From NCBI RefSeq assembly GCF_029674545.1, contig NZ_CP121354.1, forward strand, positions 434,001 through 498,000: 64,000 bases of DNA. Direction: 5' to 3'. The notes under the pieces were generated by a model, which saw only the letters and a program-made list of their open reading frames with translations, was not told the DNA's origin and did no database searches. Position numbers and translations under genes: made by a program. Position 1 is the first letter of the stretch; each line of letters begins with the position of its first letter. Positions 30,922 to 49,736 of this stretch are shown here, one piece after another. The DNA comes from Mesorhizobium sp. WSM4904. GTDB taxonomy: Bacteria > Pseudomonadota > Alphaproteobacteria > Rhizobiales > Rhizobiaceae.

Positions 30922-31046
30922 CAAACCCAACTTTCCGGCCCAGACGCGAGGTTCTGGCGCCAAACTTTTGCGTGCGCGTCCGGACGGTCGGGTCCCGACG
31001 TGCTTCTCACACACTGCCAGCAGTAAGCCCTTGTGTTGGAAACTTA

Positions 31047-31058
31047 TTAGTATACAAA
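31047..31058. promoter_or_regulatory. candidate operator TTAGTATACAAA
   Basis: A near-palindrome in the fpr/hyuA divergent region, 82 bases before the hyuA start. Its GTATACAAA core recurs, with purine changes, in the promoter of the niacin-type operon (43583-43594) and upstream of the liv operon (51144-51155). Confidence 0.4.
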
Positions 31059-31140
31059 CGATCTTGGGGTCAAGATCGAGGCATAAAACACCTTTCCAAA
31101 CTGGGACATGTCCGTAGTTTTAGCATTTCGGGTTTCGACA

Positions 31141-33213
31141 ATGGATGAGAAATTTTCGGCGTCGGCGGGAAATGTTGTCGCAGGCATCGATGTCGGCGGA
31201 ACCTTCACCGACCTGCTGCTGATCGACGGCAAGGCAGGCGGAAAGGTGCATATCGCCAAGACGCCGACCACAGTGGAGAACCAGGCATTCGGCGTGGTCG
31301 CCGCACTTGCCGCCACCGGCTTTCCGGTCGACGGTATCGACCTCATCGTCCATGGCACGACGACGACCACCAACGCCGTGCTGGAACGCCGGCTGGCCAG
31401 GACCGGCATGATCACCACGCGCGGCTTTCGCGACGTGATCGAGCTTGGCCGGCGCACCCGGCCGCAAGCCTATGGCATGACGGGCACCTTCGTGCCGGTC
31501 ATTCCGCGCGATCTGCGACTCGAGGTCTCGGAGCGCGTCGAGGCGTCCGGCGCCGTTCGCGTCCCGCTCGACGAGGCGGAGATGCGCGACGCGGTGAAGC
31601 GGCTGCTCGCCGCCGGCTGCGAGTCGCTCGTCATCCATTTCCTGCATTCCTACGCCAACCCGGCGCATGAACGCCGCGCGGCGGAGATCGCGGCGGAACT
31701 CTGGCCGAACGGCCATATCACCACCGGCCATGCGCTTCTTTCAGAAGCGCGCGAGTTCGAGCGCGGCGTGACGGCGGCGGTCAACGCCTCGGTGCAGCCG
31801 ATCCTGGAGCGCTATGTCGAGCGGCTGCGCAAGGAGCTGGCGGCGAAAGGCTATGCGCGCGACTTCCTGATCATGAACGGCAATGGCGGCATGATCTCGG
31901 CCCGCTTCGTCACGCAGGAATCGGCCAAGACCGTGATGTCGGGCCCAGCATCGGGCGTGATCGCGGCAGCCTATACCGGAAAACGCGCCGGCTTCGGCAA
32001 TGTCGTCACCTACGACATGGGCGGCACCTCGACCGACGTGGCGCTTATCCGCAACGCCGAGCCCGCCGTCTCGAACGAGATCGAGATCGAGTATGCAATG
32101 CCGATCCATGTGCCGATGGTGGCGGTGCACACCGTCGGCGCCGGCGGCGGCTCGATCGCGCGCGTCGACGCGGCCGGCCTGATCCAGATCGGCCCGGAAA
32201 GCGCCGGCGCCAATCCCGGCCCGATCTGCTACGGGCGCGGCGGCACCGAACCGACCATCACCGACGCCAATCTGGTGCTGGGCCGGTTGGCGCCGAAGAA
32301 GCTGCTCGCCGTCGACAATCCGGTCACCGTCGAGCGCGTGACCGCGATCTTCGAGGACAAGATCGGCAAGCGCACCGGCCTTTCCGGCGTCGAAGCGGCG
32401 GGCGCGATCCTGAGGCTCGGCAACATGAAGATGGCGGGCGCCATCCGCATGGTGTCTGTGTCGCGCGGCCACGATCCGCGCGATTTCGCGCTGTTCGCCT
32501 TCGGCGGCGCCGGGCCATTGCACGCGACAGCACTCGCCCGCGAGCTCGGCCTGCCACGTGTGCTGGTGCCGGCGCGCCCCGGCATCACCAATGCGCTCGG
32601 CTGCGTCGTCGCCGATCTCAGGCACGATTTCGTCAACACGATCAACCAGCCGGTGGCGAGCCTCGACGAAGCGAAGCTTCGCGAGGTATTGGAACGGCAC
32701 CGGAACGAAGGCGAGGCGCTGATCGCCAAGGAAGCGGTGAAGCCGGACGCGATCCGCGTCACTCATTCCGCCGACATGCAGTTCGTTGGCCAGACGCACA
32801 TCATCAACGTGCCGCTGCCGTCCTCATCGGTGACGCGCGCGACGCTGCAGCAACTCTTCGAAAAGGCCTATTTCGCGCGCTTCAAGGTCGAGCTGCCCGA
32901 GATCCGCGCCAATCTCGTCAACCTCAATACCTCGGTCACCGGCGTGCGGCCGCAAATCGATCTGTCGAAGCTGATCGACCCGGCGGGGCGCGCGGCGACG
33001 CTCGAGGAGGCGCTGCGCGAAATCCGGCCGGTCTGGTACAGTGGGCACTGGCACGACACTCCGGTCTATGACCGCGAAAAACTGCCGCTCGATGCAACAA
33101 TCGAAGGGCCGGCGATCCTGGAGCAGATGGACGCAACCACGGTGCTGGAACCCGGCGACCATGCGCGTTCCGACGCCGACGGCAACATCATCATCGACAT
33201 CGGCGAGGCCTGA
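31141..33213 (+). CDS. hyuA: hydantoinase/5-oxoprolinase subunit A (ATP-dependent)
   Basis: The 690-residue protein has the N-terminal ASKHA motif GIDVGGTFTDLLLID, then VHGTTTTTNAVLERR, the central TYDMGGTSTDVAL, GAGGGSIARVDAAG and FAFGGAGPLHA, all hallmarks of N-methylhydantoinase A. With HyuB it hydrolyses a cyclic amide or imide (hydantoin, 5-oxoproline or a relative) or carboxylates a ketone (acetone or acetophenone carboxylase relatives) at the cost of ATP; sequence alone does not decide. The start may be 31141 or 31108; neither has a strong ribosome site. hyuB begins three bases after the stop. Confidence 0.88.
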   Translation: MDEKFSASAGNVVAGIDVGGTFTDLLLIDGKAGGKVHIAKTPTTVENQAFGVVAALAATGFPVDGIDLIVHGTTTTTNAVLERRLARTGMITTRGFRDVIELGRRTRPQAYGMTGTFVPVIPRDLRLEVSERVEASGAVRVPLDEAEMRDAVKRLLAAGCESLVIHFLHSYANPAHERRAAEIAAELWPNGHITTGHALLSEAREFERGVTAAVNASVQPILERYVERLRKELAAKGYARDFLIMNGNGGMISARFVTQESAKTVMSGPASGVIAAAYTGKRAGFGNVVTYDMGGTSTDVALIRNAEPAVSNEIEIEYAMPIHVPMVAVHTVGAGGGSIARVDAAGLIQIGPESAGANPGPICYGRGGTEPTITDANLVLGRLAPKKLLAVDNPVTVERVTAIFEDKIGKRTGLSGVEAAGAILRLGNMKMAGAIRMVSVSRGHDPRDFALFAFGGAGPLHATALARELGLPRVLVPARPGITNALGCVVADLRHDFVNTINQPVASLDEAKLREVLERHRNEGEALIAKEAVKPDAIRVTHSADMQFVGQTHIINVPLPSSSVTRATLQQLFEKAYFARFKVELPEIRANLVNLNTSVTGVRPQIDLSKLIDPAGRAATLEEALREIRPVWYSGHWHDTPVYDREKLPLDATIEGPAILEQMDATTVLEPGDHARSDADGNIIIDIGEA

Positions 33214-33215
33214 CA

Positions 33216-34913
33216 ATGCCAGTGCAAGGGGCAAAGCTCGACACGATCACGCTTTCGGTGCTGCAGGCGGCGCTGCAGCAGGTCTGCGACGAGATGGATC
33301 TGACGTTTTCCCGCGCGGCCTTCTCGCCGGTCATCGCCGAGGCCAACGATCGCTCGGATGGCATCTATTCGGCGGCCGACGGCTCGCTGATCGCGCAAGG
33401 CAGCCAGGGCCTGCCGGTGTTCGTCGGCGTCATGCAATATTCGACCAAGACGGTGATCGAGATGATCGCCGACGGCCGTTGCCTGGCGCCGGAGCCCGGC
33501 GACATCTATATCGTCAACGACCCCTATCTCGGCGGCACGCATCTGATGGATGTGCGTTTCGTCATGCCGGTCTATCGAAACGGCAAGATTTTCTGCTGGC
33601 TTTCCAACACGGGTCATTGGCCTGATATCGGCGGCTCTGTGCCGGGCGGCTTCTCGGCGTCGGCCACCGCAGTCGAGCAGGAAGGCTTGCGCCTGCCGCC
33701 GGTAAAACTGTTCAAGAAGGGCGTGCTCGACCCGGAAATCTACGCCATCATCTGCTCGAACATCCGCGTCGCCGACCAGCGCATCGGCGATATTCGCGCG
33801 CAGGCTGCCGCGTTGCTGATCGGCCAGGACAGGCTAAACGAAATACTGGATCGTTACGGAGACGAAACCGTCATCGAAGCGATCGCCGAATTGCGCCGAC
33901 GCGCCGCCGACCAGATGCGCGCCTCGATCGCGGTGATACCGGACGGCGTCTATCGCTCGCAGGCCTTCGTCGATTCCGACGGCGTGGTGAACGAGCCGCT
34001 GACCATAAATCTGGCCATCGAGAAGAAGGGCGACACGCTGACCTTCGATTTCGCCGGTTCGTCAAAGCCCTGCGCCGGACCGATGAACAGCGTGCTGGCG
34101 ACGACCCTGTCGTCGGTCTATCTCGCCATGCGCCATATCTTTCCCGAGGTGCCGATCAGCGCCGGCGCCTTCGAGCCGCTGAACGTCGAGCGGCCGGAAG
34201 GCACCTTCCTCGACGCGAAATATCCGCGCCCCGTATCGGGCTGCGCGGCGGAGGTCTCGCAGCGCATCGCGGAAGCGGTGTTCGCGGCGATGGTGCAGGC
34301 GCTGCCGGAGAAGGTGACGGCGGCACCCGCCGGCTCCAGCGGCAATTTCGCGCTCGGCGGCAACGATCCGGCGCGCGGGCGCGACTACGTGATGTACCAG
34401 ATCTCGGGTGGCGGCTATGGCGGCAATGCCGGCCATGACGGCCTGAGCAACGGCTGCTCTACCATCGGCATTTCGAAATCGCCGCCGGTCGAGATCATGG
34501 AGCAGGCTTTTCCGGTTCTCTACCGGCACTACGCGCTGCGCGAGGGCTCGGGCGGCGCCGGCAAGCATCGCGGCGGCTTCGGCCTTGCCTATGAGGTGGA
34601 GATATTGCGGGGCGAAGCCCGCGCCTCCTTCGTCATGGATCACGGCCGCTTCGGGCCGCAGGGCGCGCTCGGTGGCAAGGACGGCGCGCCGAACAGCGTG
34701 ACCGTATTTCGGGGCGGCGAAGCGCATGTGCCACCACATCTTTCCAAGGAGCAGGACATCGCGCTTAGGGCCGGCGACCGCGTACGCGTCGGCACGCCGG
34801 GCGGCGGCGGCTATGGCGATCCGCGCCAACGCGACCCGAGGCTGATCGCCGAGGATGTCCGGCTCGGCTATTATACGCCCGAACAGGCGCAGGAGATGTT
34901 CGGCGTGGGTTGA
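33216..34913 (+). CDS. hyuB: hydantoinase/5-oxoprolinase subunit B
   Basis: The 565-residue partner of HyuA shows the typical N-terminus (DTITLSVLQAALQQVCDEMDLTFSRAAFSPVI, ANDRSDGIY), GDIYIVNDPYLGGTHLMDVR, GHWPDIGGSVPGGF and the Gly-rich C-terminus (GGAGKHRGGFG, GTPGGGGYGDP). It should be the catalytic half of the ATP-dependent amidohydrolase complex. Start is three bases after hyuA, so the two are translated from one message. The substrate is unknown; a cyclic lactam from the neighbouring heterocycle pathway is one possibility. Confidence 0.9.
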   Translation: MPVQGAKLDTITLSVLQAALQQVCDEMDLTFSRAAFSPVIAEANDRSDGIYSAADGSLIAQGSQGLPVFVGVMQYSTKTVIEMIADGRCLAPEPGDIYIVNDPYLGGTHLMDVRFVMPVYRNGKIFCWLSNTGHWPDIGGSVPGGFSASATAVEQEGLRLPPVKLFKKGVLDPEIYAIICSNIRVADQRIGDIRAQAAALLIGQDRLNEILDRYGDETVIEAIAELRRRAADQMRASIAVIPDGVYRSQAFVDSDGVVNEPLTINLAIEKKGDTLTFDFAGSSKPCAGPMNSVLATTLSSVYLAMRHIFPEVPISAGAFEPLNVERPEGTFLDAKYPRPVSGCAAEVSQRIAEAVFAAMVQALPEKVTAAPAGSSGNFALGGNDPARGRDYVMYQISGGGYGGNAGHDGLSNGCSTIGISKSPPVEIMEQAFPVLYRHYALREGSGGAGKHRGGFGLAYEVEILRGEARASFVMDHGRFGPQGALGGKDGAPNSVTVFRGGEAHVPPHLSKEQDIALRAGDRVRVGTPGGGGYGDPRQRDPRLIAEDVRLGYYTPEQAQEMFGVG

Positions 34914-36260: not shown

Positions 36261-36722
36261 TTAAGCCAGCTTCGCCAGCAGCCGCAGGAAGGTCGCGGCC
36301 TCCTTGGCTGTCAGCGGCGCAAGGGTCTCCTCGGTGATCGTGCGGGCGAGCGGGATCAGCCGCTCGATCGCCTCGCGGCCTTCCGGCGTCAGATTGACCA
36401 GCAGCCGCCGCTTGTCGACCTCGTGCTTGGAAAGCTCGACCAGCCCGCGCGCCTTCAGCCGGTCGATGACGCCCTTCACGGTGGCGGCGTCCATGGCGAT
36501 CAAGGCACCCAGCTGGTTCTGCGAGGTCTCACCGATATCGTAAAGCTTGGCCAAGGCAGCGAATTGCGGCGGCGTCAGATCGGCGATGTGCGAGGCGAAG
36601 ATCGCGACATGACGCTGATGCGCCTTGCGCAGGATGAAGCCGACCTGGTCCTGCAGATGGTAGTTGTTTTCGTCCGGTTCTTCGCCTTCGACCAGGCGCA
36701 GCAGATTGTCCTCACCGCTCAT
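36261..36722 (-). CDS. MarR-family transcriptional regulator
   Basis: The 153-residue protein has a winged helix at about residues 50-115: LTPPQFAALAKLYDIGETSQNQLGALIAMDAATVKGVIDRLKARGLVEL, then the wing DKRRLLVNLTPEGRE. I start at the ATG at 36722, which overlaps the preceding stop as ATGA; five residues more are possible from 36737. As last gene of the niacin-type operon it is the natural local repressor, comparable in position and family to NicR of Pseudomonas nicotinate genes, though orthology is not shown. Its likely target is TTCGTATGCAAA at 43583-43594. Confidence 0.87.
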   Translation of the reverse strand: MSGEDNLLRLVEGEEPDENNYHLQDQVGFILRKAHQRHVAIFASHIADLTPPQFAALAKLYDIGETSQNQLGALIAMDAATVKGVIDRLKARGLVELSKHEVDKRRLLVNLTPEGREAIERLIPLARTITEETLAPLTAKEAATFLRLLAKLA

Positions 36723-37303
36723 CTCAGGCCGTCCCATGCCTTGATGTCCTCTGCCGCGAGGCCGCCCATGCGGTTATGAACGCGCGGACCGCAAGTCATG
36801 GCGAGGCAGAACAGGATCTCGTCGGGGCGCGGCCCGTCGCTGACGCCGACCTCCATGGCATCGAAATGGCTGCGCACATAGGCGGCGTTGATGTGGCCGA
36901 GCGGCACGTCGAGCCGCGCGCCGAAGGCGCCGACCTTCTTGGCCGAGGGCACGATGGCCTTGGCGTCGCCGAGGCGCTCGCGCATGGCATAGCCGCCCGG
37001 CACATGCCACAGCGCGCCGTGCTCGAGCTCGCCGGCCGTGCCGACGATGGCGCCCTTGCCGTAGCCGTCGATCTTTTTCACGTCGCCGCCAAGTGCCGCG
37101 ATCAGCTTGTCGGAAAGCAGGAGCCCAAGCGGCTTCAGGTCCTCCATCGCGCCTTGCAGGTCCTCGACATAGCGGCCGGCGAACGGGTTCTTGACCACTG
37201 CGAGAGCGGCAGCGCGGCGGCGCGGCTCTTTGGCCACAGGGCCGCCGTCATGAAAAATCTCTTCGGTCAGAACCGCGACCTTACGGATCGGAAAGTCAGG
37301 CAT
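36719..37303 (-). CDS. PF06684 (DUF1185, 'amino acid synthesis') family protein
   Basis: The 194-residue product matches my recollection of the DUF1185 family: IRKVAVLTEEIFHDGG at the start, RRAAALAVVKNPFAGRYVEDL, YGKGAIVGTAGELEHGALWH, and the C-terminal DEILFCLAMTCGPRVHNRMGG. Structures of this family were reported to have a chorismate-mutase-like fold; no enzymatic function is established that I know of. It overlaps its upstream neighbour by eight bases and the MarR gene by four, so it is an integral operon member. An unassigned ring-opening or hydrolytic step is a possible job. Confidence 0.8.
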   Translation of the reverse strand: MPDFPIRKVAVLTEEIFHDGGPVAKEPRRRAAALAVVKNPFAGRYVEDLQGAMEDLKPLGLLLSDKLIAALGGDVKKIDGYGKGAIVGTAGELEHGALWHVPGGYAMRERLGDAKAIVPSAKKVGAFGARLDVPLGHINAAYVRSHFDAMEVGVSDGPRPDEILFCLAMTCGPRVHNRMGGLAAEDIKAWDGLR

Positions 37304-38177
37304 GGGCAGTTTCCTTCGCTTTATGCTTGTTGGGCGCGGCCAGCGCCACGGAACCAATGATACGGGACTGGCCCGCCAGGAACAGCGCCGCTGCGGCAAT
37401 CAAGCCGCGCCGGCGAAAATCTTCGGCGACGGCAAGGCCGTTGTCCAGCGCCCGCGTCACCGCATCGGGGGCAAGCGCACCGACGCCTTGCGTCACCAGC
37501 CGGTCGCCGAGGTCGCTGTCGGGTGCCAGGTCGCGTGCCGGCACACGATGGACGGCGGCATGGCCGGGCAGATCGACGGCGTTGGCGATGAGCGTTGCCG
37601 CGGCATCGGCCTCGGCTCCGGTCCGCGCAAGCACAGTCACCGCATCCGCTATGCCGAGCGAAAAGGAGCGGCCGCGCCAGCCGCTGGTCGCAATGCCGCG
37701 CGCGACGTCCTCGGCATGGATCACGATGCGATCGGCCATGCCATGGCCGGTGCCGGCGATCGCCAGCACCATCGACTGGCCCTTGGCAAGATGGATGGCG
37801 CTGTCGCCGCCATTGTTGACATAAGCGCGTTCGAGCCGGCGTCCGGCAAGCAACGAGCCGAGAACTTCGTCGGCTACCGAGCCGGCGACGGCGGCCATCG
37901 GTGTGATGAAGCCTTCCGCCAACGGCGAAACAGCCGCCTCCATGCGCCGCGCCGTCGGGCCGGCGAAAGTACGCGGCCGCAGGGACGCCGGGCGACGCAA
38001 CTCGGGAAGTTCTTCCACCAGCTCGTTCAAGATCGTCTGGAAGCGTTCGACAGCCTGGGCATAGGCGGCGCGGCGTTCACCCGCCTCGCCGAAGGCTGCG
38101 ACGATCAGGTCTATTGGCCCATGATTGAGATGGAGCCGCCGGCCGTCGGCGAGCCAATGCGCCTGCGGGCCGTTCAT
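37296..38177 (-). CDS. UPF0280-family protein
   Basis: The 293-residue protein fits the UPF0280 family: the start RLHLNHGPIDLIVAAFG, ARRMEAAVSPLAEGFITPMAAVAGSVADEVL, AYVNNGGDSAIHL, ATSGWRGRSFSLGIADAVTVLA and NAVDLPGH. As I recall, this family is placed in the ApbE-like superfamily, whose characterised members attach or hydrolyse flavin nucleotides. The NNGGDSA stretch resembles the GGD motif of ApbE. Its gene overlaps the 6-hydroxynicotinate reductase gene by four bases, so it could help mature that flavoprotein or act directly in the pathway. Confidence 0.8.
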   Translation of the reverse strand: MNGPQAHWLADGRRLHLNHGPIDLIVAAFGEAGERRAAYAQAVERFQTILNELVEELPELRRPASLRPRTFAGPTARRMEAAVSPLAEGFITPMAAVAGSVADEVLGSLLAGRRLERAYVNNGGDSAIHLAKGQSMVLAIAGTGHGMADRIVIHAEDVARGIATSGWRGRSFSLGIADAVTVLARTGAEADAAATLIANAVDLPGHAAVHRVPARDLAPDSDLGDRLVTQGVGALAPDAVTRALDNGLAVAEDFRRRGLIAAAALFLAGQSRIIGSVALAAPNKHKAKETAHA

Positions 38178-39718
38178 CCCTCGGCTCCGTTGGCCCGGCC
38201 GCGGCGCAACTGCGCCAGCGGCGGCCAGGGATTGCCGGCAGGCGCGCCGGCGCCACGGCGCGGATTGAGGTATTCGCCGCCCTTGGCGAGGATATCCCCG
38301 ACGCTGCGGATCTCGCTTTCATAGCCGCCGAGCCGGACATAGTCGTCGCGGCGCATGGTGAACTCGATGGGGGCGACCAGCGCCGGCGTCGGTACATAGC
38401 CGAAGGCGCCTTCCGGCACACGGGTGACGTCGACCATCAGTGTGATGCCGCCGCCCGGCCAGACATAGACCGGCGCGCCGCCCACCGTCACATAGGTTTT
38501 CAGGCCCTGCACCGAGCGGGTGAGGTTGACCGGATTCTCGGTGACGCCGGCGCGCAACGAGCCGCCGGCGCCGCCGATGAAGAGCACGGTGCATAGCGCC
38601 GGCTCGCAATTGTCCTCGATCAGGCCGACGGATTTCTGCAGCCGTTCCGGGAACGGCTTTTCGACCGGCCTCAGCTGCTCGTCGAGCTCGTAATAGGCGA
38701 ACTGCTCGCCGGTGGTCGACACCATCATGAGCGACAGGCCGGGACGGGCACCTTTTTTGGCGTTCCAGTCGCCAAGGATCGACAGCGGATCGGAGATCGT
38801 GGTGCCGCCCCAGCCGAGACCTGGCTCCGACACCTTGAAATAGCGGCCGGGGGTCGAGCGGCGACCGATGATTTTTATCCCCGTATCTTCCCAGCCGAGC
38901 ACCTTGCCGGCCTGGTGCTCGGAGACGACGCCGGTGATGTGGTCGTCGACCACCACCACCTCGTCGACCAGCCCGCGCCATTGCGTGGCGAACATGCCGA
39001 TGGTGGCCGAGCCGCAGCCGACGCGCATGCGATGCTCGACCTTGCCGTCGATGACCGGCGCCTTGCCGGCCTCGACGATGACGGTGGCGCCGCCATCGAT
39101 GGTGAGCTCGACGGGCTTCCTGTTGCAGAGATTGAGCAGCGCATCGCAGGTGGCGCGGCCCTCCGCCTTCGAGCCGCCGGTCAGATGATGGACGCCACCG
39201 AGCGACAGCATCTGCGAGCCGTACTCGCCCGTCGTCACATGGCCGATCGCCTCGCCTTCCGAACGCACGGTCGCCGTCTCGTCGCCGATGTGGCGATCGG
39301 TGTCGATCTTCACCTTGACGCCGCAGTAGGAGAAGATGCCTTCGGTGACGACGGTGACGAGATCGACGCCCTCGACCTCCTGGCTGACGATGAAGGGCGC
39401 CGGCTTGTAGTCGGGATAGGTAGTGCCGGCGCCGATCGCAGTGACGAAGCGGCGCCCGGTGTTGACCAGTTCGCCGTCCCACTCCTCGCCCTCGGCGATG
39501 AATGGCACGACCGCGCCGCCGGTCTCGGCCGCGTGGTCGAGGATGGTCAGCGGGTCCATGCGCACGATGCGACCGCCGACATTGCCGTAGCGGTCGCAGG
39601 CGCCGGTGCGGCCGTCGGCGATGTAGCACATGACCGGGCAGGCATCGCAGCGGATTTTTTCCGCCACCTGCTTCTCGCCGGGATCATGGGTTTCGAAACG
39701 TTCGGCAAGCTCGCTCAT
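38174..39718 (-). CDS. 6-hydroxynicotinate reductase-like iron-sulfur protein
   Basis: The 514-residue protein corresponds to proteins annotated as 6-hydroxynicotinate reductase (as in Eubacterium barkeri and some rhizobia). An N-terminal cluster motif C24-x2-C27-x3-C31-x9-C41 (CDACPVMC...GACDRYG) would bind an Fe-S centre, followed by GVHHLTGGSKAEGRATCDALL and Gly-rich stretches (GWGGTTISDPLSILG, FIGGAGGSLRAGVTENPVNLT, YVWPGGGI). The characterised enzyme reduces 6-hydroxynicotinate to 1,4,5,6-tetrahydro-6-oxonicotinate. It overlaps both neighbours by four bases. The upstream hydroxylase would supply its substrate. Confidence 0.75.
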   Translation of the reverse strand: MSELAERFETHDPGEKQVAEKIRCDACPVMCYIADGRTGACDRYGNVGGRIVRMDPLTILDHAAETGGAVVPFIAEGEEWDGELVNTGRRFVTAIGAGTTYPDYKPAPFIVSQEVEGVDLVTVVTEGIFSYCGVKVKIDTDRHIGDETATVRSEGEAIGHVTTGEYGSQMLSLGGVHHLTGGSKAEGRATCDALLNLCNRKPVELTIDGGATVIVEAGKAPVIDGKVEHRMRVGCGSATIGMFATQWRGLVDEVVVVDDHITGVVSEHQAGKVLGWEDTGIKIIGRRSTPGRYFKVSEPGLGWGGTTISDPLSILGDWNAKKGARPGLSLMMVSTTGEQFAYYELDEQLRPVEKPFPERLQKSVGLIEDNCEPALCTVLFIGGAGGSLRAGVTENPVNLTRSVQGLKTYVTVGGAPVYVWPGGGITLMVDVTRVPEGAFGYVPTPALVAPIEFTMRRDDYVRLGGYESEIRSVGDILAKGGEYLNPRRGAGAPAGNPWPPLAQLRRGRANGAEG

Positions 39719-42663
39719 AGGCGCGCCTCCTTTTCAAGGATCGCCGCCAGGATGCGGCTCGGCGTCGCCGGCACCTTGGTGATCAAGACGCCTGTGGCAT
39801 GGCGGATGGCGTTGAGGATCGCCGGCGCCGTCGGGATCAGCACATGCTCGCCCAGACCCTTGGCGCCGAAAGGTCCTTCCGGATCCGGAATCTCGACCAG
39901 AATGTGCTCGATCGGCGGTACGTCGCCGATGGTGGGGATCAGATAGTCATGCAGGTTCTCGGTGCGGCCGGGGATGTATTCCTCCATCAGCGCCATGCCG
40001 ATGCCCTGCGCGATGCCGCCCTCGATCTGGCCCTCGACCAGCATCGGGTTGATCGCCTTGCCGACGTCATGCGCGGCCGTGATCTTGATCAGCTTGACGG
40101 TGCCCAGCCTGAGATCGACCTCGAGCTCGGCGATCTGCGCGCCATAGCCATAGACGGCATAAGGCTTGCCCTGCCCCCTACCGTCGAGCGGCAGCGTCGG
40201 CGGGTCATAGGTTTCTTCTGCTACGAACACCAAGCCGTCGGCATCGGCCTTCAGCGCCGACAGATCGACCCGCCGCGCCGCGTCGCCTTCGTGGATGGAG
40301 ATATTCGCGCCGTCGAGCGCGATCGTCGCCTGATCGGACACATTGGCAAAGCGCAGGATCTTTTCGCGCAGCGCGCGGCCTGCCTTTTCGGCGGCCTTGC
40401 CGGTCACAAAAGTCTGGCGCGAGGCAGATGTTTTGCCGGCGTCGGGCGTGATGGCAGTGTCGGCGCTCTTCAGTCGGAATTTCTCCAGCGGCAGGCCGAG
40501 CGCGTCGGCGCAGATCTGGGTGATGACCGTGTTCGAGCCCTGGCCGATGTCGACGGCGCCCTGGTGCAGGATGACCTCACCCGAGCCCGAGATGCCGACC
40601 TTGATGGTCGATGGATTGGGCAGCGAGGTGTTGCCGCAGCCATACCAGCAGGAGGCGACGCCGACGCCGCGTTTGCTTGCCGTGTTGGTCGCATTGAAGG
40701 CTTCCGCTTCGGCAAGCGCGCACGACCAGTGCGGTTGGAGCGCTTCCAGGCATTCGCCAATGCCGACGCCCGACTCCAGTCGCTGACCGGTGACCGTTTC
40801 GGAGCCGTTCCGAAGACAGTTCTTCAAGCGAAAATCAAGTCGGTCCATGCCAAGCTTGCCGGCGAGCTCGTCATAGAGCGTCTCCTGCATGATGGTCGCC
40901 TGCGGCACGCCGAAGCCGCGGAAGGCGCCGGCGATCGGGCCGTTGGTATGGATCGCGCGACCCTCGGCGCGGTAGTTCGGCGTCAGATAGGGGCCGGAGG
41001 CATGTACCGGCACGCGGTTGGCGACGGTCGGGCCCCAGCTGGCGTAAGCGCCGGTGTTGAAGTCGCCCTGGAACACCATGCCTGTGACGCGGCCTTCGGC
41101 ATCGGCGCCGATGGTCGCCTTCATCTCGGCGGGATGGCGCTTGGTGGTCGATATCATCGATTCGTTGCGCGTGTAGGCGAGCGCCGCCGGCCGGCCAGTC
41201 TTCATCGCCACAAGGCCGATGAGGGGCTGCAGCGAGACGTCGAGTTTCGAGCCGAAACCGCCACCCGTGGCGGTCGGCACGATGCGCACCTTGTCGACCG
41301 GCAGGCCTAGCACCTTGGCCGTGTCATCGCGGTCCATATAGGGAGCCTGCGTGCAGGCGACGACAACGAGCGTGTCGCCGTCCATGTAAGCATAGCCGGC
41401 TTCGGGCTCGATATAAGCGTGCTCGACGAAGGAGGTTTCAATGGTGCCGGACGCTGTCACGGCGGCGCCGGCGAGCGCGCCGTCTGGATCGCCGCGTTCG
41501 ACATAGCCGGAGGTGAGCAGGTTTGCCGGGCGGTGCTTGTGGATCAGCGCGGCGCCGTCGGCCTTCGCCTCGCGTGGATGCAGCAGATGCGGCAGCTCCG
41601 TCCAGGCGATGGGGAAGTCCGTCAGGTCGAGATCGAGGATCGCTTCGCGCTCGCCCGCCACCAGCGCCACCGCCTCGCCACGGAAGCGCACGAAGCCCTC
41701 GGCAAGCGCTGGTTGGTCGGCAAAGGGCCCGATGACACCGTAGCAGTTCTTGCCCGGAATATCGGCGGCGGTGAAGACGCCGGCGATGCCGGGATGCGCG
41801 TCCGCCCATGCCCACAGGTCACCGAAGCTGAAGCGGGCATGATAGTGCGGCGAGCGAACCACAAGCACGGCAAGCGCATCGGCCGGGAAGCTGTCGCCGC
41901 CAAATCTTTCGCCGCCGGTGACCTTCGGCACGCCGTCGAGGCGGATCGGCGAGGCGCCGACAGCGTGGCCGACGTCGGGCGAGCGATGGTCAAGATCTCG
42001 GTCCAGCCGGCAAGGTTGGCGCTGCCCCTCACCCTTACCCTCTCCCCGTGAAGGACGGGGAGAGGGGAGCGTCAGCGCTGAAGCGCTTTCCTTCTCCCCG
42101 TCACTATACGGGGAGAAGGTGCCGGCAGGCGGATGAGGGGCGGCGCTGACCTTCGGCGGTTCGCCCTCGAAGCTCGCAGCATCCATCACCGCGGCGATGA
42201 TCTTCCTGTACCCGGTGCAGCGGCAGAGCACACCGCCCAGCGCATCCTGCGTCTCGGCCTCGCTCGGCGACGGGTTGCGCTCCAAAAGCGCTGTGGCCGC
42301 CACCAGCAGGCCCGGCGTGCAGATGCCGCACTGCGCGGCGCCGTGCTCCAGGAACGAGGCCTGCAAGGCGGACAGACTGCCATTGGCAAGGCCCTCGACC
42401 GTGGTGACGGAAGCTCCGGAGACGGAGGCCGCCGGCACGAGGCAGGCGCAGACGGGATCGCCGTCGAGCAGCACCGTGCAGGCGCCGCAATCGCCGGCAT
42501 CGCAGCCGACCTTGGTGCCCGTCAGCCGCAATTCGTCGCGCAGAACCTGCGACAGCCGCCGCACCGGCGGCACCGAGACGCTGACGGCGGCGCCGTTGAC
42601 TTCGAAGGCGATGTCGGCGCGCTGCATAGCAGGCTGGACCATGCCGGGCTGGGCCATGCTCAT
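39715..42663 (-). CDS. fused 2Fe-2S / molybdopterin hydroxylase of the xanthine dehydrogenase family (nicotinate hydroxylase candidate) with in-frame palindrome insert
   Basis: The 982-residue protein fuses the small and large subunits of a molybdenum hydroxylase. Residues 20-100 hold the plant-type 2Fe-2S cluster (C54, C59, C62, C74); 110-165 the second cluster (C112-x2-C115, C147-x-C149). Residues about 235-982 are the molybdopterin domain with GGGFGSKLD, GAFRGFGVPQ, AHDVGKAINP and the active-site Glu in GAKGLGEH. The FAD subunit is the upstream gene (ATGA overlap). Between the two halves, residues about 173-219 are encoded by a complete palindromic element and are Pro/Ser/Arg/Gly-rich, unlike either domain. 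With the reductase next door, the likely reaction is nicotinate to 6-hydroxynicotinate; another N-heterocycle is possible. Confidence 0.82.
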   Translation of the reverse strand: MSMAQPGMVQPAMQRADIAFEVNGAAVSVSVPPVRRLSQVLRDELRLTGTKVGCDAGDCGACTVLLDGDPVCACLVPAASVSGASVTTVEGLANGSLSALQASFLEHGAAQCGICTPGLLVAATALLERNPSPSEAETQDALGGVLCRCTGYRKIIAAVMDAASFEGEPPKVSAAPHPPAGTFSPYSDGEKESASALTLPSPRPSRGEGKGEGQRQPCRLDRDLDHRSPDVGHAVGASPIRLDGVPKVTGGERFGGDSFPADALAVLVVRSPHYHARFSFGDLWAWADAHPGIAGVFTAADIPGKNCYGVIGPFADQPALAEGFVRFRGEAVALVAGEREAILDLDLTDFPIAWTELPHLLHPREAKADGAALIHKHRPANLLTSGYVERGDPDGALAGAAVTASGTIETSFVEHAYIEPEAGYAYMDGDTLVVVACTQAPYMDRDDTAKVLGLPVDKVRIVPTATGGGFGSKLDVSLQPLIGLVAMKTGRPAALAYTRNESMISTTKRHPAEMKATIGADAEGRVTGMVFQGDFNTGAYASWGPTVANRVPVHASGPYLTPNYRAEGRAIHTNGPIAGAFRGFGVPQATIMQETLYDELAGKLGMDRLDFRLKNCLRNGSETVTGQRLESGVGIGECLEALQPHWSCALAEAEAFNATNTASKRGVGVASCWYGCGNTSLPNPSTIKVGISGSGEVILHQGAVDIGQGSNTVITQICADALGLPLEKFRLKSADTAITPDAGKTSASRQTFVTGKAAEKAGRALREKILRFANVSDQATIALDGANISIHEGDAARRVDLSALKADADGLVFVAEETYDPPTLPLDGRGQGKPYAVYGYGAQIAELEVDLRLGTVKLIKITAAHDVGKAINPMLVEGQIEGGIAQGIGMALMEEYIPGRTENLHDYLIPTIGDVPPIEHILVEIPDPEGPFGAKGLGEHVLIPTAPAILNAIRHATGVLITKVPATPSRILAAILEKEARL
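42009..42147. repeat. type A palindromic element inserted in frame within a gene
   Basis: The full outer arms (GGCGCTGCCCCTC ... GAGGGGCGGCGC) and both inner hairpins (CCTCTCCCCGT...ACGGGGAGAGG; CTTCTCCCCGT...TACGGGGAGAAGG) are present, as in the intergenic copies at 23817-23949 and 46056-46187. The hydroxylase frame stays open throughout and codes for about 46 extra residues at the junction of the Fe-S and molybdopterin domains. Confidence 0.88.
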
Positions 42664-43517
42664 GCCGCCACCTTGCTTTCGCCGAGGCCGACGGCGGCGC
42701 GCACGGCACGCGCAACGATCTCGCGCCCCGCACCCTGCCGATATTCGGCGCTGCCGCGCACGTCACCGATTGGCGACAGTTCGTCGATCGGCGCGGACAG
42801 CACCGCATCGGCAAGCGCGGCTGTCGCGGGTTGGCCGCGAAGGACCGTCTCGACGCCGGCAAGACGGCGGGCAACGGCCGAGCAGGCGCCGACGGCGATC
42901 GCCGCATCGGCGACCGCGCCGTCCGCGATCACGAGGCGAGCTGCCGCCATGGCGATCGAGATGACGAGATAGCGCCGCGCGCCGAGCTTGACGAAGGCCG
43001 ACGCGCCGGCGGCGGAAGGCTTCGGGACACGGATGGCGGTGACCATCTCGCCGGGCCGCAGCGCCGTGCGGCGATTGCCAAGGATGAATTCGCCGAGCGG
43101 CAGATGGCGGGTCGCCTTCGCCGAGCGCAATTCGACTTCCGCCTCGAGCACCAGCAGCGCCGGCACGCCATCGGCGGCGGGCGAGGCATTGCAGAGATTG
43201 CCGGCGACGGACGCGACATTCTGGATCTGAACGGAGCCGACCTCGCGCGCGGCCGCCTTCAGCGCATCGAACGCCGCCGGCAGCGGGTGGCGCACGATGT
43301 CGGTCCAGGTGGTGCGGGCGCCGATCCGCCAATGATCATCCGTCTCGACGATGCCGCGCAGCACGGCAAGACCATTGATGTCAAGGATGTTGTCGCGGAA
43401 AGGCTTTGCGCCCTGCGCCGGATAGAAATCCGTTCCGCCGGCGAGGACGCGCCAGCGATCCTCGCCAAGAAGAGCGAGCGCCTCGTCGACCGTGGTGGGT
43501 TTCGCGTAACGGATCAC
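42660..43517 (-). CDS. FAD-binding subunit of the molybdenum hydroxylase (CoxM/XdhB type)
   Basis: The 285-residue protein carries the FAD-binding motifs of the CoxM family: VLAGGTDFYPAQG near residue 30 and QIQNVASVAGNLCNASPAADGVPALL at about 100, then the CO-dehydrogenase flavoprotein C-terminal domain. It passes electrons from the Mo/Fe-S chain to an acceptor. I choose the GTG at 43517, preceded by GGAAGG, because residues encoded further upstream (to ATG 43583) look non-coding and would overlap the candidate operator. It heads the six-gene operon. Confidence 0.88.
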   Translation of the reverse strand: MIRYAKPTTVDEALALLGEDRWRVLAGGTDFYPAQGAKPFRDNILDINGLAVLRGIVETDDHWRIGARTTWTDIVRHPLPAAFDALKAAAREVGSVQIQNVASVAGNLCNASPAADGVPALLVLEAEVELRSAKATRHLPLGEFILGNRRTALRPGEMVTAIRVPKPSAAGASAFVKLGARRYLVISIAMAAARLVIADGAVADAAIAVGACSAVARRLAGVETVLRGQPATAALADAVLSAPIDELSPIGDVRGSAEYRQGAGREIVARAVRAAVGLGESKVAA

Positions 43518-43582
43518 GCCTTGCCTTCCCGAAAAGGGGCCTTTCCGAGGGAACCTGCCGGCGCCGGGCGTGGGCAAATTCA

Positions 43583-43594
43583 TTCGTATGCAAA
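43583..43594. promoter_or_regulatory. candidate MarR operator TTCGTATGCAAA
   Basis: An imperfect palindrome (TTYGYATRCRAA, mismatches only transitions) in the divergent region between the hydroxylase operon and pncA. AT-rich sequence around it (43576-43606) stands out from the GC-rich neighbourhood. It is the best candidate site for the operon-encoded MarR protein. Confidence 0.45.
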
Positions 43595-43750
43595 TGATAT
43601 CAACTTCGCCGCAATTGTCAAAGCGGAGGCTCTCGCCTCGGCTTTGTTATGCCTGTAGAGGTTGACGCAGCCAGCCATCTGGTCGAGGGTCTGCCTCCGG
43701 TCGCGTCAGCGGCATCTGATTGGGGCCCGAGCCGAACCGAAGGGGAGCCC

Positions 43751-44365
43751 ATGGCCGACGAAGCGCTCATCGTCATCGATCTGCAGAACGATTTTTGCCC
43801 TGGCGGCGCGCTGGCGGTTTCCGGCGGCGACGAGATCGTGCCGCTGGTCAACGACCTGATCCGGCGGACCGAGCATGTCGTGCTGACGCAGGACTGGCAT
43901 CCCGCCGGCCATTCGAGCTTCGCTTCCAGCCATCCCGGCAAGCAGCCCTTCGAAACGATCGAGATGCCCTACGGGCCGCAGACGCTTTGGCCGGATCACT
44001 GCATCCAGGGCAGCCTCGGTTCCGATTTCCATTCGGGCCTCGCATGGACCAAGGCGGAACTGGTGATCCGCAAGGGTTTCCGCACGGCCATCGACTCCTA
44101 TTCGGCCTTCTTCGAGAACGATCATACGACGCCGACCGGCCTTGCCGGCTATCTCAAGGAACGCGGCATCGATGCCGTCACGCTGGTTGGGCTCGCCACC
44201 GATTACTGCGTCGCCTATTCGGCGCTCGACGCAGTGAAGCAGGGGTTCAGGACGACCGTGCGGCTCGACGCCTGCCGCGGCATCGACCTCAACGGCTCGC
44301 TCGACACGATGATCGCGCTCATGCGCGAGGCTGGCGTGACGCTCGAAGACCATTTGGCGGACTGA
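43751..44365 (+). CDS. pncA: nicotinamidase
   Basis: The 204-residue isochorismatase-fold hydrolase converts nicotinamide to nicotinate and ammonia. The catalytic triad is visible as Asp in VIDLQNDFCPGG, Lys in LVIRKGF and Cys in ATDYCVAYSA; the metal-site segment DWHPAGHSSF is also present. AGGGGAG lies before the ATG. It is divergent from the operon for a putative nicotinate hydroxylase, so its product could be the feed of that pathway; pncB, which instead returns nicotinate to NAD, is 8.5 kb away. Confidence 0.92.
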   Translation: MADEALIVIDLQNDFCPGGALAVSGGDEIVPLVNDLIRRTEHVVLTQDWHPAGHSSFASSHPGKQPFETIEMPYGPQTLWPDHCIQGSLGSDFHSGLAWTKAELVIRKGFRTAIDSYSAFFENDHTTPTGLAGYLKERGIDAVTLVGLATDYCVAYSALDAVKQGFRTTVRLDACRGIDLNGSLDTMIALMREAGVTLEDHLAD

Positions 44366-44441
44366 TCCGCCGGTGGGGCAGGCGAGGATACCTTCCGCGT
44401 GGGGCGAGGATGTCGCCAGTTTGCGGCGCCGGGATGCGGGC

Positions 44442-44592
44442 TCCCCCTTCTCCCCTTGTGGGAGAAGGTGTCGCCGAAGGCGACGGATGAGGGGGGTTCC
44501 AGGGAACGCCAGCGTCTCACTCCGCTGGAGCACCCCTCATCCGTCTCGGCGCTATCGCGCCGATCCACCTTCTCCCACAAGGGGAGAAGGGA
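44442..44592. repeat. large palindromic element, type D
   Basis: Outer arms CCCCCTTCTCCCCTTGTGGG and CCCACAAGGGGAGAAGGG, with inner hairpins (GTCGCCGAAGGCGAC; CGGCGCTATCGCGCCG) and a GATGAGG/CCTCATC pair. It lies between pncA and the antiporter gene, and the antiporter reading frame runs through the right half of it. Confidence 0.87.
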
Positions 44593-46037
44593 AGGCGCGG
44601 AGCAGCCGGTCGAGGGGGCTTTTCTCACCCTTCATCGCGCTTGCCGTAGCGCTGCTGCTTCCCGCACAGGCGCTATCCGCCGAGGCTCACGACGCGCTGC
44701 CCGGCGCCGCGATGTCGCTCTGGTGGGCGCTGCCTTTTGCGGGCCTGCTTTTGTCGATCGCGACCGGGCCGCTGCTTTTCCCGCATGTGTGGGAGCACCA
44801 CTATGGCAAGATCACCGCCGCCTGGGCGACTTTTGTCGTGGTTCCGCTGGCGGTCGCCTTCGGCATTCCGGCGGCTGGTGAAGCGGTGCTGCACACGCTG
44901 CTCACCGAGTATCTCTCCTTTATCATCTTGTTGTTCGCGCTGTTCACCATTTCCGGCGGCATCCTCGTTGCCGGCAACATCCACGGCACGCCGCTGGTCA
45001 ATGCCGGCCTGCTGCTCATCGGCGCGATCCTTGCCTCGGTCATTGGCACCACCGGCGCCTCGATGATCCTGATCCGGCCGATCCTGCGCGCCAACGACAA
45101 CCGGCCGTTCAACGCCCATGTGGTGATCTTCTTCATCTTCCTGGTGTCCAATATCGGCGGCTCGCTGACGCCGCTCGGTGACCCGCCGCTGTTCGTCGGC
45201 TTCCTGCGCGGCGTCGATTTTTTCTGGACGACGATACACATCCTGCCCGACACGCTGTTCGTCGGCGGACTGGTGCTGCTCATCTTCCTCATGCTCGACA
45301 TCGTCCTGCATCGCCGCGAGGCCGGCATGCCGAAAATCAAGGACCCGACGCCGGACACGGAGGTGCGCCTGCGCGGGCTGGCCAACCTGCCGCTGCTTGC
45401 CGGCGTCATCGGCGCGATCCTGCTTTCGGCGAGCTGGAAGCCCGGCGTGAGCTTTTCCGTCTTCGGCGTCGCTCTGGAACTGCAGAACCTGGTGCGCGAC
45501 GCCATCATCCTGGCGCTGGCCTTTTTGTCGCTCAAAGTCTCGTACAAGAGCCACCGCGAAGCGAACGGGTTCAGTTGGGGCCCCATCGCCGAAGTGGCGA
45601 AACTCTTTGCCGGCATCTTCATCTGCATCGTGCCGGTCGTCGCCATGCTGAGGGCCGGGCACGACGGCGCGATGGCGCCGCTGGTCGCGCTGGTCACCTC
45701 GGCCGACGGCCAGCCCAACGACCTCGCCTATTTCTGGCTGACCGGCGCGCTGTCGTCCTTCCTCGACAACGCGCCGACCTATCTGGTGTTCTTCGAGCTT
45801 GCCGGCGGCGATGCGAAGCACCTGATGACGGAGGCCGCCTCGACGCTCGCCGCGATCTCGGCGGGCGCCGTGTTCATGGGCGCCAATACCTATATCGGCA
45901 ACGCGCCGAACTTCATGGTCTTTGCCATCGCCAGGCATCGCGGCTTCAAGATGCCGGGCTTCTTCGGCTACATGGCATGGTCGGGCCTGGTGCTGATCCC
46001 GATTTTTTTGATCGCGGGATTTTTGTTCTTCGGGTGA
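44487..46037 (+). CDS. NhaD-like sodium:proton antiporter, N-terminus overlapped by a palindromic element
   Basis: The protein has about twelve hydrophobic segments and the pattern of NhaD/citrate-transporter-type antiporters: ISGGILVAGNIHGTPLVNAGLLLIGAILASVIGTTGASMILIRP, NIGGSLTPLGDPPLFVGFLRG, and SFLDNAPTYLVFFELAGG with GANTYIGNAPNFMV near the end. These are ion-exchange signatures of the inner-membrane family. The start is uncertain. A signal-like hydrophobic stretch (FIALAVALLLPAQALSA) precedes the core, but between it and the palindrome there is no ATG, GTG or TTG in frame. The nearest upstream start is the ATG at 44487 inside the element; the next downstream ATG, 44712, would drop the signal. 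I list the longer form with low confidence in the 5' end. Confidence 0.75.
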   Translation: MRGVPGNASVSLRWSTPHPSRRYRADPPSPTRGEGKARSSRSRGLFSPFIALAVALLLPAQALSAEAHDALPGAAMSLWWALPFAGLLLSIATGPLLFPHVWEHHYGKITAAWATFVVVPLAVAFGIPAAGEAVLHTLLTEYLSFIILLFALFTISGGILVAGNIHGTPLVNAGLLLIGAILASVIGTTGASMILIRPILRANDNRPFNAHVVIFFIFLVSNIGGSLTPLGDPPLFVGFLRGVDFFWTTIHILPDTLFVGGLVLLIFLMLDIVLHRREAGMPKIKDPTPDTEVRLRGLANLPLLAGVIGAILLSASWKPGVSFSVFGVALELQNLVRDAIILALAFLSLKVSYKSHREANGFSWGPIAEVAKLFAGIFICIVPVVAMLRAGHDGAMAPLVALVTSADGQPNDLAYFWLTGALSSFLDNAPTYLVFFELAGGDAKHLMTEAASTLAAISAGAVFMGANTYIGNAPNFMVFAIARHRGFKMPGFFGYMAWSGLVLIPIFLIAGFLFFG

Positions 46038-46218: not shown

Positions 46219-46947
46219 TCACCCAACCCCCACGTAGCGCCGCACCGCCGACGGATCCACACGCAGTTCCTCGACATCGACCGTCTCGCGGTTGCGGCCA
46301 TTCTCGATGAATGAGACGCGGTCGGCGACCGAAAGGACGGCGTCGACGCGCTGCTCGACCAGGATGGTCGAAACGCCGAGGTCGCGCAGCTTCGCCACCG
46401 TCTCGCGGATCCTGGCGATCATCGACGGCATCAACCCTTCGGTCGGCTCGTCGAGCAACAGCACCTGCGGCTCGAGGCAGAGCGCGCGCGCCATCGCCAG
46501 CATCTGCTGCTCGCCGCCCGAAAGCGTGCCTGAGCGCTGCTTCAGCCGCTCTCGCAGCAGCGGGAAGAGGTCGAGGACGTTCTCGCGCGTCTGCCTGTCC
46601 CTGCCCCGCGCCATCAAGCCGATCTCGATGTTTTCCGCCACCGTCATGTCGGCAAACAATCGCCTGCCCTGCGGCACATAGGCGACGCCGGCCTTCGGCA
46701 CGTCATGCGCGGCGAGGCCGGTCAATTCCTTGCCATCCAGCGCGATCGAGCCGGCCGCCGCCGGCACCAGCCCCATGATCGCCTTCAGCGTCGTCGTCTT
46801 GCCGGCGCCGTTGCGGCCGAACAGGCAAAGCACCTCGCCCTTGTTCAGCACGAGGTCGAGCCCGTAGAGCACCTGCACCTCGCCATAAAAGCAGTCGAGG
46901 CCGGAAATGGCGAGCAGGCTTCGATCGACCACGAGCGGATCAGCCAT
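46219..46947 (-). CDS. livF: branched-chain-type ABC transporter ATP-binding protein LivF
   Basis: The 242-residue ATPase has Walker A GRNGAGKTT, Q-loop YVPQGRRLFADMTV, signature LSGGEQQMLAMARAL and Walker B VLLLDEPTEGL, with the LivF-type C-terminus. It overlaps livG by eight bases. It is the last gene of a five-gene liv-type importer operon. ATP hydrolysis by LivF/LivG drives uptake through LivH/LivM. Confidence 0.92.
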   Translation of the reverse strand: MADPLVVDRSLLAISGLDCFYGEVQVLYGLDLVLNKGEVLCLFGRNGAGKTTTLKAIMGLVPAAAGSIALDGKELTGLAAHDVPKAGVAYVPQGRRLFADMTVAENIEIGLMARGRDRQTRENVLDLFPLLRERLKQRSGTLSGGEQQMLAMARALCLEPQVLLLDEPTEGLMPSMIARIRETVAKLRDLGVSTILVEQRVDAVLSVADRVSFIENGRNRETVDVEELRVDPSAVRRYVGVG

Positions 46948-47668
46948 GGGTCGCTCCGAGATAGGCGTCTTGCACCTCGGCGTTGGCGCGGATCTGTTCC
47001 GGCGTGCCTTCGGCGAGGATCTTTCCCGAATTGAAGACGGTGATGCGGTCGGCAAGCTGCATGACCACCGGCATGTTGTGCTCGATAAGCAGCACCGTAG
47101 CGTCCTTGGCGATCTCGCGTACCAGCGCGGTGAAATTGTCGATCTCGCTGTCGGCCAGGCCTTGCGTCGGCTCGTCGAGGATCAGCAGGCGCGGCTTCAG
47201 CGCCAAGCCCATGGCCACTTCGAGCAGACGCTGATGGCCGTAGGAAAGGTGCGCGGCCAGCGTGCCTGCCCGGTCGGCGAGGCCGGTGCGCCCCAGCGCC
47301 GCCATGACGCCGGCCCTCACCTGTCCCCTCGAGCGGCCGTCGGTCAGCGTGCGCTGCACCGGCAGCGCGACATTGTCGAATGCCGTGAGGTTGGCGAAGA
47401 CGCTGGTGATCTGGAAGGTGTAGGCGACGCCGAGGCGAACCCTTTTGTAAGCCGGCATGGTCGTGATATCGGCGCCATCGAAGACGATCATGCCGGCCGA
47501 CGGCCGGATGCGACCGCTGAGCAGGCTGACGAAGGTAGTCTTGCCGGCGCCGTTGGGGCCGATGATGGCGCGGATCTCGCCCGGGATCAGCGCGAAGTCG
47601 ACGCCGTCGACGGCGCGCAGGCCGCCGAAATGACGCGACAGGCCCTTGGTGGTGAGCAGCGGCGTCAT
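46940..47668 (-). CDS. livG: branched-chain-type ABC transporter ATP-binding protein LivG
   Basis: The 242-residue ATPase has Walker A GPNGAGKTTFVSLLSG, the LivG-specific TFQITSVFANLTAFDNV segment, signature LSYGHQRLLEVAMGL and Walker B LLILDEPTQGL. The signature is LSYGHQ instead of LSGGQQ, as is usual in LivG. The ATG overlaps the livM stop by four bases. It pairs with LivF. Confidence 0.92.
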   Translation of the reverse strand: MTPLLTTKGLSRHFGGLRAVDGVDFALIPGEIRAIIGPNGAGKTTFVSLLSGRIRPSAGMIVFDGADITTMPAYKRVRLGVAYTFQITSVFANLTAFDNVALPVQRTLTDGRSRGQVRAGVMAALGRTGLADRAGTLAAHLSYGHQRLLEVAMGLALKPRLLILDEPTQGLADSEIDNFTALVREIAKDATVLLIEHNMPVVMQLADRITVFNSGKILAEGTPEQIRANAEVQDAYLGATHG

Positions 47669-49505: not shown

Positions 49506-49521
49506 TACACGCGAACGGATG

Positions 49522-49736
49522 CGCGAGGCACCCCCCTCTGCCCTGCCCGTCCTCCGCAGCAGCTGCGCAGCAGCTTCGGAGGGTGGACCGGGCATCTCCC
49601 CCTCAAGGGGGGAGATTGGCAGTTCCTGCGAAGGCGACCATCTGCCGTCGTTGGTGGTTGGCGAAACCCGCGGCGAAATCCGATCTCCCCCCTTGAGGGG
49701 GAGATGTCCGGCAGGACAAAGGGGGGTGGCTTGGCG
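49522..49736. repeat. type B palindromic element with an extra nested palindrome, copy 2
   Basis: It has the same arms as the other type B elements (CACCCCCCTCTGCCCTGCC; ATCTCCCCCTC-loop-GGGGGAGAT; spacer box TTGGTGGTTGGCGAAA) plus an inserted inverted repeat, CCGTCCTCCGCAGCAGCTGCG ... in two parts around 49548-49587, that lengthens one arm. It sits inside the liv operon between the binding-protein and permease genes, where it could reduce downstream expression. Confidence 0.83.

Follow-up and report, generated by a model that had tools for sequence, protein, structure and literature searches.

Nicotinate catabolism in Mesorhizobium sp. WSM4904: HyuAB as proposed replacement for enamidase and UPF0280 as candidate maturation factor of 6-hydroxynicotinate reductase

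Introduction

The 64-kb stretch of the Mesorhizobium sp. WSM4904 genome analysed here (the window) carries the overlapping genes fad-mohyd-hnr-upf0280-duf1185-marR on the minus strand, with the nicotinamidase gene pncA divergent from them. The locus raises a question. If nicotinate is broken down here through a molybdenum (Mo) hydroxylase and 6-hydroxynicotinate reductase (Hnr), which enzyme opens the reduced ring, and what does UPF0280 do beside Hnr? We favour, at a probability of about 75%, a MarR-controlled nicotinate catabolism regulon in which a two-subunit enzyme, HyuAB, replaces enamidase and UPF0280 matures Hnr. Gene identities, reciprocal occurrence, a shared operator motif, folds and residues, all obtained by computation, lead to this reading.

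Results and discussion

The locus and the core pathway

The genes concerned are the following.

43583-42660, minus strand: fad, putative flavin adenine dinucleotide (FAD) subunit of the hydroxylase (FAD_binding_5 and CO_deh_flav_C); likely start GTG 43517
42663-39715, minus strand: mohyd, fused [2Fe-2S]/molybdopterin hydroxylase, proposed nicotinate hydroxylase (Fer2/Fer2_2/MoCoBD fusion)
39718-38174, minus strand: hnr, 6-hydroxynicotinate reductase-like (a 98% relative bears that name)
38177-37296, minus strand: upf0280 (UPF0280, COG2122), ApbE-fold protein, proposed Hnr maturation factor (NF003322, 390 bits, cut-off 290)
37303-36719, minus strand: duf1185 (AA_synth PF06684 = DUF1185; 237.5, cut-off 27)
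36737-36261 (start may be 36722), minus strand: marR, BpsR-like MarR regulator (MarR family; 6pcp (BpsR), expectation value (E) 5.1e-29)
43649-44365, plus strand, likely start 43754: pncA, divergent nicotinamidase (NF008623, matched from residue 36)
31108-33213, plus strand: hyuA, ATPase subunit of an ATP-dependent lactamase-type pair (ATP, adenosine triphosphate; Hydantoinase_A and Hydant_A_N)
33216-34913, plus strand: hyuB, putative metal-binding subunit (Hydantoinase_B; 6yra_B, E 4.4e-76)

Nicotinate catabolism by a Mo hydroxylase and Hnr is well supported for this cluster. The gene families agree with it, as do the closest Hnr among the matches listed (98% identity, Mesorhizobium loti, named 6-hydroxynicotinate reductase) and, in the comparison of loci, the hydroxylase and hnr genes standing together with nicotinate-related neighbours. 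No Pfam or NCBIfam model passed for Hnr at E 0.001; nine of the ten Hnr cysteines looked at are present in at least 40 of 41 sequences. The first-pass annotation of this DNA had proposed the same route, and family searches bear out both its family names and its divergent PncA nicotinamidase (217 bits against a cut-off of 174). The region that it delimited (36261-44365) misses hyuAB, the liv transporter and the NAPRTase gene. Its series of overlaps (4, 4, 4, 8 and 4 bases) stands for the first four, from fad to duf1185; the last measures 4 bases with the MarR start at the second Met (36722) and 19 with the first (36737). The ATG of fad at 43583 lies inside the promoter and operator of this gene, so the true start is probably GTG 43517.

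The core nicotinate degradation cluster is described in passages of Shettigar 2012 (PMC3511419), which also demonstrate growth on nicotinate and intermediates for a relative, strain SG-6C. The core is thus not new, and of the undescribed pathway variant claimed earlier only the ring-opening step is proposed here as new. The locus most likely holds a variant of the known pathway, and the novelty lies in that step and in the strength of the link between UPF0280 and Hnr.

In the proposed route, PncA would convert nicotinamide to nicotinate, the FAD/iron-sulfur (Fe-S)/Mo hydroxylase would yield 6-hydroxynicotinate, and Hnr would turn this into 1,4,5,6-tetrahydro-6-oxonicotinate, a six-membered enamide lactam. 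HyuA would spend ATP to activate (phosphorylate) the lactam, whose ring HyuB would open with the help of a bound metal ion; after loss of ammonia the product would be the same as that of enamidase, so that HyuAB would replace that enzyme. The shared product of the enamidase step is 2-formylglutarate, as Alhapel reportedly described in 2006. The liv transporter would take up the substrate, and the BpsR-like MarR would release its operators on binding 6-hydroxynicotinate. UPF0280 would be an ApbE-fold maturation factor that Hnr requires, perhaps for its flavin; in the same work by Alhapel, the Hnr of E. barkeri is said to carry a covalent flavin and three Fe-S clusters.

In five loci (L078, L080, L085, L086 and L090) the FAD/Mo hydroxylase is swapped for a NicAB-like pair whose large protein has cytochrome-c-type motifs; step one of the module is exchanged there as well.

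Reciprocal occurrence of HyuAB and enamidase

Enamidase had already been noted as absent, and an amidohydrolase related to 2vun indeed has no match in the whole Mesorhizobium genome (G000) at E 1e-20. The enamidase query came from the loci and matches 2vun (ENAMIDASE) at E 2.9e-111. Neighbourhoods of hnr were taken from the best 80 of 321 named loci encoding an Hnr relative (numbers with L are loci, those with G genomes). A sample of 51 genomes, all Hnr-bearing, consists of the window's own genome and 50 of these 80 loci, and an even sample of the class contains 240 genomes, 38 of them with Hnr. Together they give 88 Hnr-bearing genomes (51 + 37); the window's genome is counted once, and the samples may share further species. 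In the 51 genomes, enamidase was scored at E of 1e-20 or below and HyuB at 74% identity or more (the next HyuB matches reach 44-45%); in the class sample the identity cut-offs were at least 65% for HyuB, 68% for enamidase and 47% for DUF1185.

None of the 88 genomes lacks both enzymes: 57 have HyuB alone, 28 enamidase alone and 3 the two together. The 51-genome sample, with enamidase in 18 (54-100% identity) and HyuB in 36, divides into 33 genomes with HyuB only, 15 with enamidase only, 3 with both and 0 with neither. Among the 38 Hnr genomes of the class sample these numbers are 25, 13, 0 and 0. Seen from the other side, Hnr is present in 25/25 class-sample genomes with HyuB and in 13 of the 14 with enamidase (G321 has no Hnr). 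Six class-sample genomes, the HyuB genomes G305 and G343 among them, have weaker enamidase relatives (37-43%). The enamidase label needs 3 changes on a tree of the 51 Hnr sequences. On a quick joint tree of all 88, the type changes at least 9 times, 6 of these forced by starred (strong) branches; genomes with both enzymes were scored as HyuB type in the labelling. What supports the exclusion is thus a set of several separate exchanges; the 88 genomes do not count as 88 independent cases. One Hnr locus labelled Acidobacteriaceae (L091) falls within the alphaproteobacterial Hnr on the tree, either a misbinned contig or a transfer.

The fetched flanks of the 80 loci contain HyuA/B (at least 58%) in 20 cases and enamidase (at least 50%) in seven (L051, L059, L067, L075, L083, L086 and L091), never both. 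Some loci hold the hyu genes in the operon itself. The row fad-mohyd-hnr-upf0280-hyuA-hyuB, in which no DUF1185 was found, occurs in L225 and L227; L228 has the same row from mohyd on, again lacking DUF1185, and as the genes are called, upf0280 overlaps hyuA, and hyuA overlaps hyuB, by 4 bases each. In L231 the row is hnr-upf0280-duf1185-hyuA-hyuB, and in L229 and L230 marR, hyuA and hyuB stand together, divergent from fad-mohyd-hnr-upf0280. Across the 25 class-sample HyuB genomes, hyuB lies within 25 kb of hnr in 15, farther away on the same contig in 4 and on another contig in 6.

A shared operator motif

By eye, the fad upstreams of other genera often show a site like TTTGTATACAAA shortly after a TTGACA-type promoter. 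It is present within 3 mismatches in 23/42 non-Mesorhizobium fad upstreams, compared with 5.8% of shuffles. A matrix was built from 13 fad-upstream sites, none of them from the Mesorhizobium-like loci (L017-L039), and run over the whole window. Three promoters stand out, and the next place scores 12.1.

31043-31062, plus strand: operator-like site in the hyuA promoter, about 46 nucleotides before the ATG (score 27.5; exact match to the 16-base pattern)
43579-43598, minus strand: operator-like site overlapping the fad -10 box (score 25.5; exact match to the 16-base pattern)
51140-51159, minus strand: operator-like site in the livJ promoter (score 18.6; no exact match to the stricter 16-base pattern)
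TTGACA 43621-43616 and TATCAT 43599-43594, minus strand: predicted fad promoter boxes (sequence reading)

The 16-base pattern was fitted to the hyuA and fad sites and scanned over the 6.65-Mb genome. It matches exactly at three places, namely hyuA, fad and one promoter elsewhere; with up to one mismatch there are 7 matches genome-wide, and 1 for the backward control. Among 40 hyuA upstreams from fetched loci, 19 score at least 22 and 21 score below 8; of 3000 random 320-base stretches from these loci, 54 reach 17. Most of the siteless hyuA genes (14) are in a same-strand row with liv-like genes, 2 are in genomes without Hnr, 3 follow upf0280, 1 follows DUF1185 and 1 overlaps marR. The hyu genes of L284, L285 and L286, some 52-73 kb from the cluster or on another contig, also carry the site. 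The nicA upstream has the site (score at least 17) in all five NicAB-type loci. Where a genome has both HyuAB and enamidase (three cases), hyuA carries the site and enamidase does not.

The nearest PDB matches of the window's MarR are 2nnn, followed by BpsR in second and third place. BpsR senses 6-hydroxynicotinate, and its four contacts are given in PMC6837509. The equivalents of Tyr15, Arg26 and His32 are invariant in 42/42 cluster MarRs.

Residues of HyuAB

HyuA and HyuB form a two-subunit pair, assigned by family searches to Hydantoinase_A and Hydantoinase_B, respectively. Among solved chains, 6yra_B is nearest to HyuB; we take this chain to be the caprolactamase subunit CapB, as the residue numbers fit. 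HyuA retains the ATP motifs (DVGGT 28, DMGGT 303 and GANPGP 367), and Asp45, His109, Asp112 and His134 of HyuB align with the CapB metal ligands Asp41, His99, Asp102 and His124, so that 4/4 are kept (CapA ATP-site motifs and CapB ligands from PMC8453981). Another member of this family, OplAB, uses ATP to open delta-valerolactam (PMC11033972). Together, these retained residues and the OplAB reaction make the six-membered lactam tetrahydro-6-oxonicotinate a plausible substrate, whose ring HyuAB would open.

Alternatively, HyuAB could be part of the nicotinate regulon but have as its substrate an intermediate further down or off the main route, either another cyclic amide or a compound that it carboxylates, as acetone and acetophenone carboxylases do, with some other enzyme opening the ring. 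The family does include carboxylases, and 5l9w, 5svb and 5m45 are among the matches of HyuB. In addition, enamidase, an amidohydrolase, opens the tetrahydro-6-oxonicotinate ring without ATP, so ATP is not strictly needed for this step. However, the exchange is with enamidase itself, one of the two being present in 88/88 genomes; the nearest solved chain ranks before the carboxylases; and the operator is found on hyuA or on enamidase. We thus regard a side role as quite unlikely.

UPF0280 as a companion of Hnr

UPF0280 is found in 38/38 Hnr genomes of the class sample and in 1/202 others, and it accompanies Hnr whether the genome has enamidase or HyuB. Its gene lies directly 3' of hnr on the same strand in 79/80 loci; in the sole exception (L065) there is no UPF0280 in the 1.5 kb before the contig ends. 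The commonest spacing is a 4-nucleotide overlap (34/76 measured). So regular an arrangement goes beyond chance. The fold is that of ApbE, a flavin transferase. Asp191 (49/49) and Thr195 (48/49) are aligned with Asp255 and Thr259 of the ApbE in row L245, a pair which we take to be metal-binding residues. The role that fits UPF0280 best is that of an Hnr maturation factor, perhaps acting via the Hnr flavin. Cofactor maturation, one of two roles suggested for it earlier, thus agrees with both the distribution and the fold.

UPF0280 might instead help Hnr as a sulfur-trafficking protein that supplies persulfide or Fe-S, a role put forward for COG2122 proteins of methanogens. Passages of PMC5764234 report that COG2122 is required together with DUF39 in Desulfovibrio and propose a persulfide modification, MA1715 is termed a sulfur-trafficking protein in PMC12068725, and Hnr has many conserved cysteines. 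A sulfur carrier sits poorly with the protein itself: the window's UPF0280 has no cysteine (4/49 have none), no alignment column has Cys in more than 15/49, and the fold and Asp/Thr pair match ApbE. We consider this role unlikely.

A wider proposal is more tentative than the regulon itself, and we doubt it as a whole. As an ATP-driven enzyme, HyuAB would be new among openers of the reduced nicotinate ring, and UPF0280/COG2122 would be a general ApbE-fold maturase with Hnr as its client here and DUF39 in homocysteine synthesis, installing or handling a flavin-type cofactor without the histidine of ApbE.

DUF1185

The DUF1185 gene is directly downstream of upf0280 in 64/71 loci with room for it. 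The protein is found in 28/38 Hnr genomes, namely 13/13 with enamidase and 15/25 with HyuB. A second DUF1185 type (about 50%) often adjoins enamidase; in some genomes that lack Hnr, it likewise neighbours enamidase-like genes (L235 and, judging by coordinates, G435).

The first-pass annotation had suggested ring opening by UPF0280 or DUF1185. Both are within the operon, and solved DUF1185 structures are hexamers with a chorismate-mutase-like fold of unknown function (PMC2954203), which leaves room for such a role. The genome distribution speaks against both. UPF0280 goes with either opener (38/38) and has a flavin transferase fold. DUF1185 is missing from 10/38 Hnr genomes and from three of the operons (L225, L227 and L228), and it occurs in 13/13 enamidase genomes, which already have an enzyme for this step. 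Since HyuAB, in addition, is co-regulated, reciprocal to enamidase and fits the step, ring opening by either protein is not supported and appears extremely improbable. That DUF1185 handles the ring-opened enamine or acts in a later decarboxylation is only a guess.

Weighing the evidence

Several observations weigh against the HyuAB and UPF0280 assignments. In the class sample, 65% was adopted as the HyuB cut only once the list had been seen, and two genomes just below it (G450, 64%; G352, 62%) have HyuB without Hnr; counting these, Hnr is present in 25/27 HyuB genomes. The hyuA genes of these two have no operator and stand beside another Mo-hydroxylase-like gene. Three Mesorhizobium genomes (L275, L276 and L277) have both HyuAB and enamidase. 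The site (score at least 17) is upstream of enamidase in only 3/16 loci (L086, L281 and L290), and 19/42 non-Mesorhizobium fad upstreams have none within 3 mismatches. In the 42 cluster MarRs the equivalent of BpsR His23 is Phe (37) or Tyr (5), so that the four contacts are not all conserved. In the profile alignment UPF0280 lacks the ApbE histidine loop, and the Lys of the ApbE GxxKG motif is Ala (Ala98) in 49/49. The fold search could not assign a fold to Hnr. Finally, the substrates and products, the MarR effector and the chemistry proposed for HyuAB and UPF0280 are inferred from the gene data.

Two related situations may involve other pathways. In L237 and L238, which lack Hnr, the HyuB of 62-64% has a Mo-hydroxylase-like gene (27-29% to mohyd) nearby; a sister pathway that acts on a different hydroxylated ring may be at work there. 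In L275, L276 and L277 the enamidase lies away from hyuA, adjoins DUF1185 genes and has no operator, perhaps as part of a different N-heterocycle pathway; an isochorismatase-like hydrolase is near the enamidase in L276 and L277.

Neighbouring genes and other observations

Two further features of the window lie beyond pncA.

46219-51066, minus strand: liv-type ABC transporter (two ATPases, two permeases, binding protein), proposed importer; matches near hnr in many of the 80 loci
52906-54210, minus strand: nicotinate phosphoribosyltransferase of nicotinamide adenine dinucleotide (NAD) salvage (NAPRTase and NAPRTase_N); also near hnr in L078, L080 and L090

An FAD/NAD-binding oxidoreductase resembling ferredoxin-NADP reductase (30094-31014, minus strand) is divergent from hyuA; its family (cluster 15) occurs in 10/80 loci, and it could therefore feed electrons to Hnr. 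A CitMHS_2 permease (44373-46037, plus strand) lies directly 3' of pncA and is matched in 16/23 Mesorhizobium-like loci (L017-L039) and in 0 of L040-L096. A membrane protein of about 450 amino acids is found near hnr or liv genes in 27/80 loci (e.g. L093:2660-4021, L055:12856-14232); no Pfam family was found in the two members scanned. At G016:C1:2969820-2971255, hnr lies in two frames (matches to residues 21-250 and 251-500), reflecting either a frameshift or a faulty assembly.

Significance

The proposal gives a concrete substrate to one branch of the large HyuAB family. For many alphaproteobacteria it would supply the step missing after Hnr, and it predicts the ring opener of each genome. 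UPF0280, an orphan otherwise known from homocysteine synthesis, is tied to a second client enzyme in genetically tractable aerobes, so its function becomes directly testable. The route carries nicotinate, 6-hydroxynicotinate and the pesticide product 6-chloronicotinate (the last according to PMC3511419).

Comparison with known systems

The cluster of Azorhizobium caulinodans and Bradyrhizobiaceae SG-6C (PMC3511419) is the closest parallel, and the Bradyrhizobium loci found here share hnr-upf0280-duf1185-liv. Loci of this type combine enamidase with a NicAB-like hydroxylase that, from its sequence, is fused to cytochrome c domains, whereas the window has the FAD/Mo hydroxylase and HyuAB, and no enamidase. 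The enamidase of Eubacterium barkeri (2vun), of which the alphaproteobacterial enamidase is a clear relative, catalyses the step proposed for HyuAB; HyuAB is unrelated to it and of an ATP-dependent two-subunit enzyme type. With CapAB and OplAB, HyuAB shares the two subunits, the ATP motifs and the four metal ligands (PMC8453981). However, HyuB scores 317 bits on the NCBIfam caprolactamase model, far under the cut-off of 1000, and its regulon and proposed substrate are different. The missing histidine loop and the invariant Lys to Ala exchange set UPF0280 apart from the flavin transferases ApbE, Ftp and FmnB. In homocysteine synthesis the partner of COG2122 (DVU1097, MA1715) is DUF39, whereas here it is Hnr. 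The window's MarR resembles BpsR of Bordetella and keeps three of its four contacts, differing at His23.

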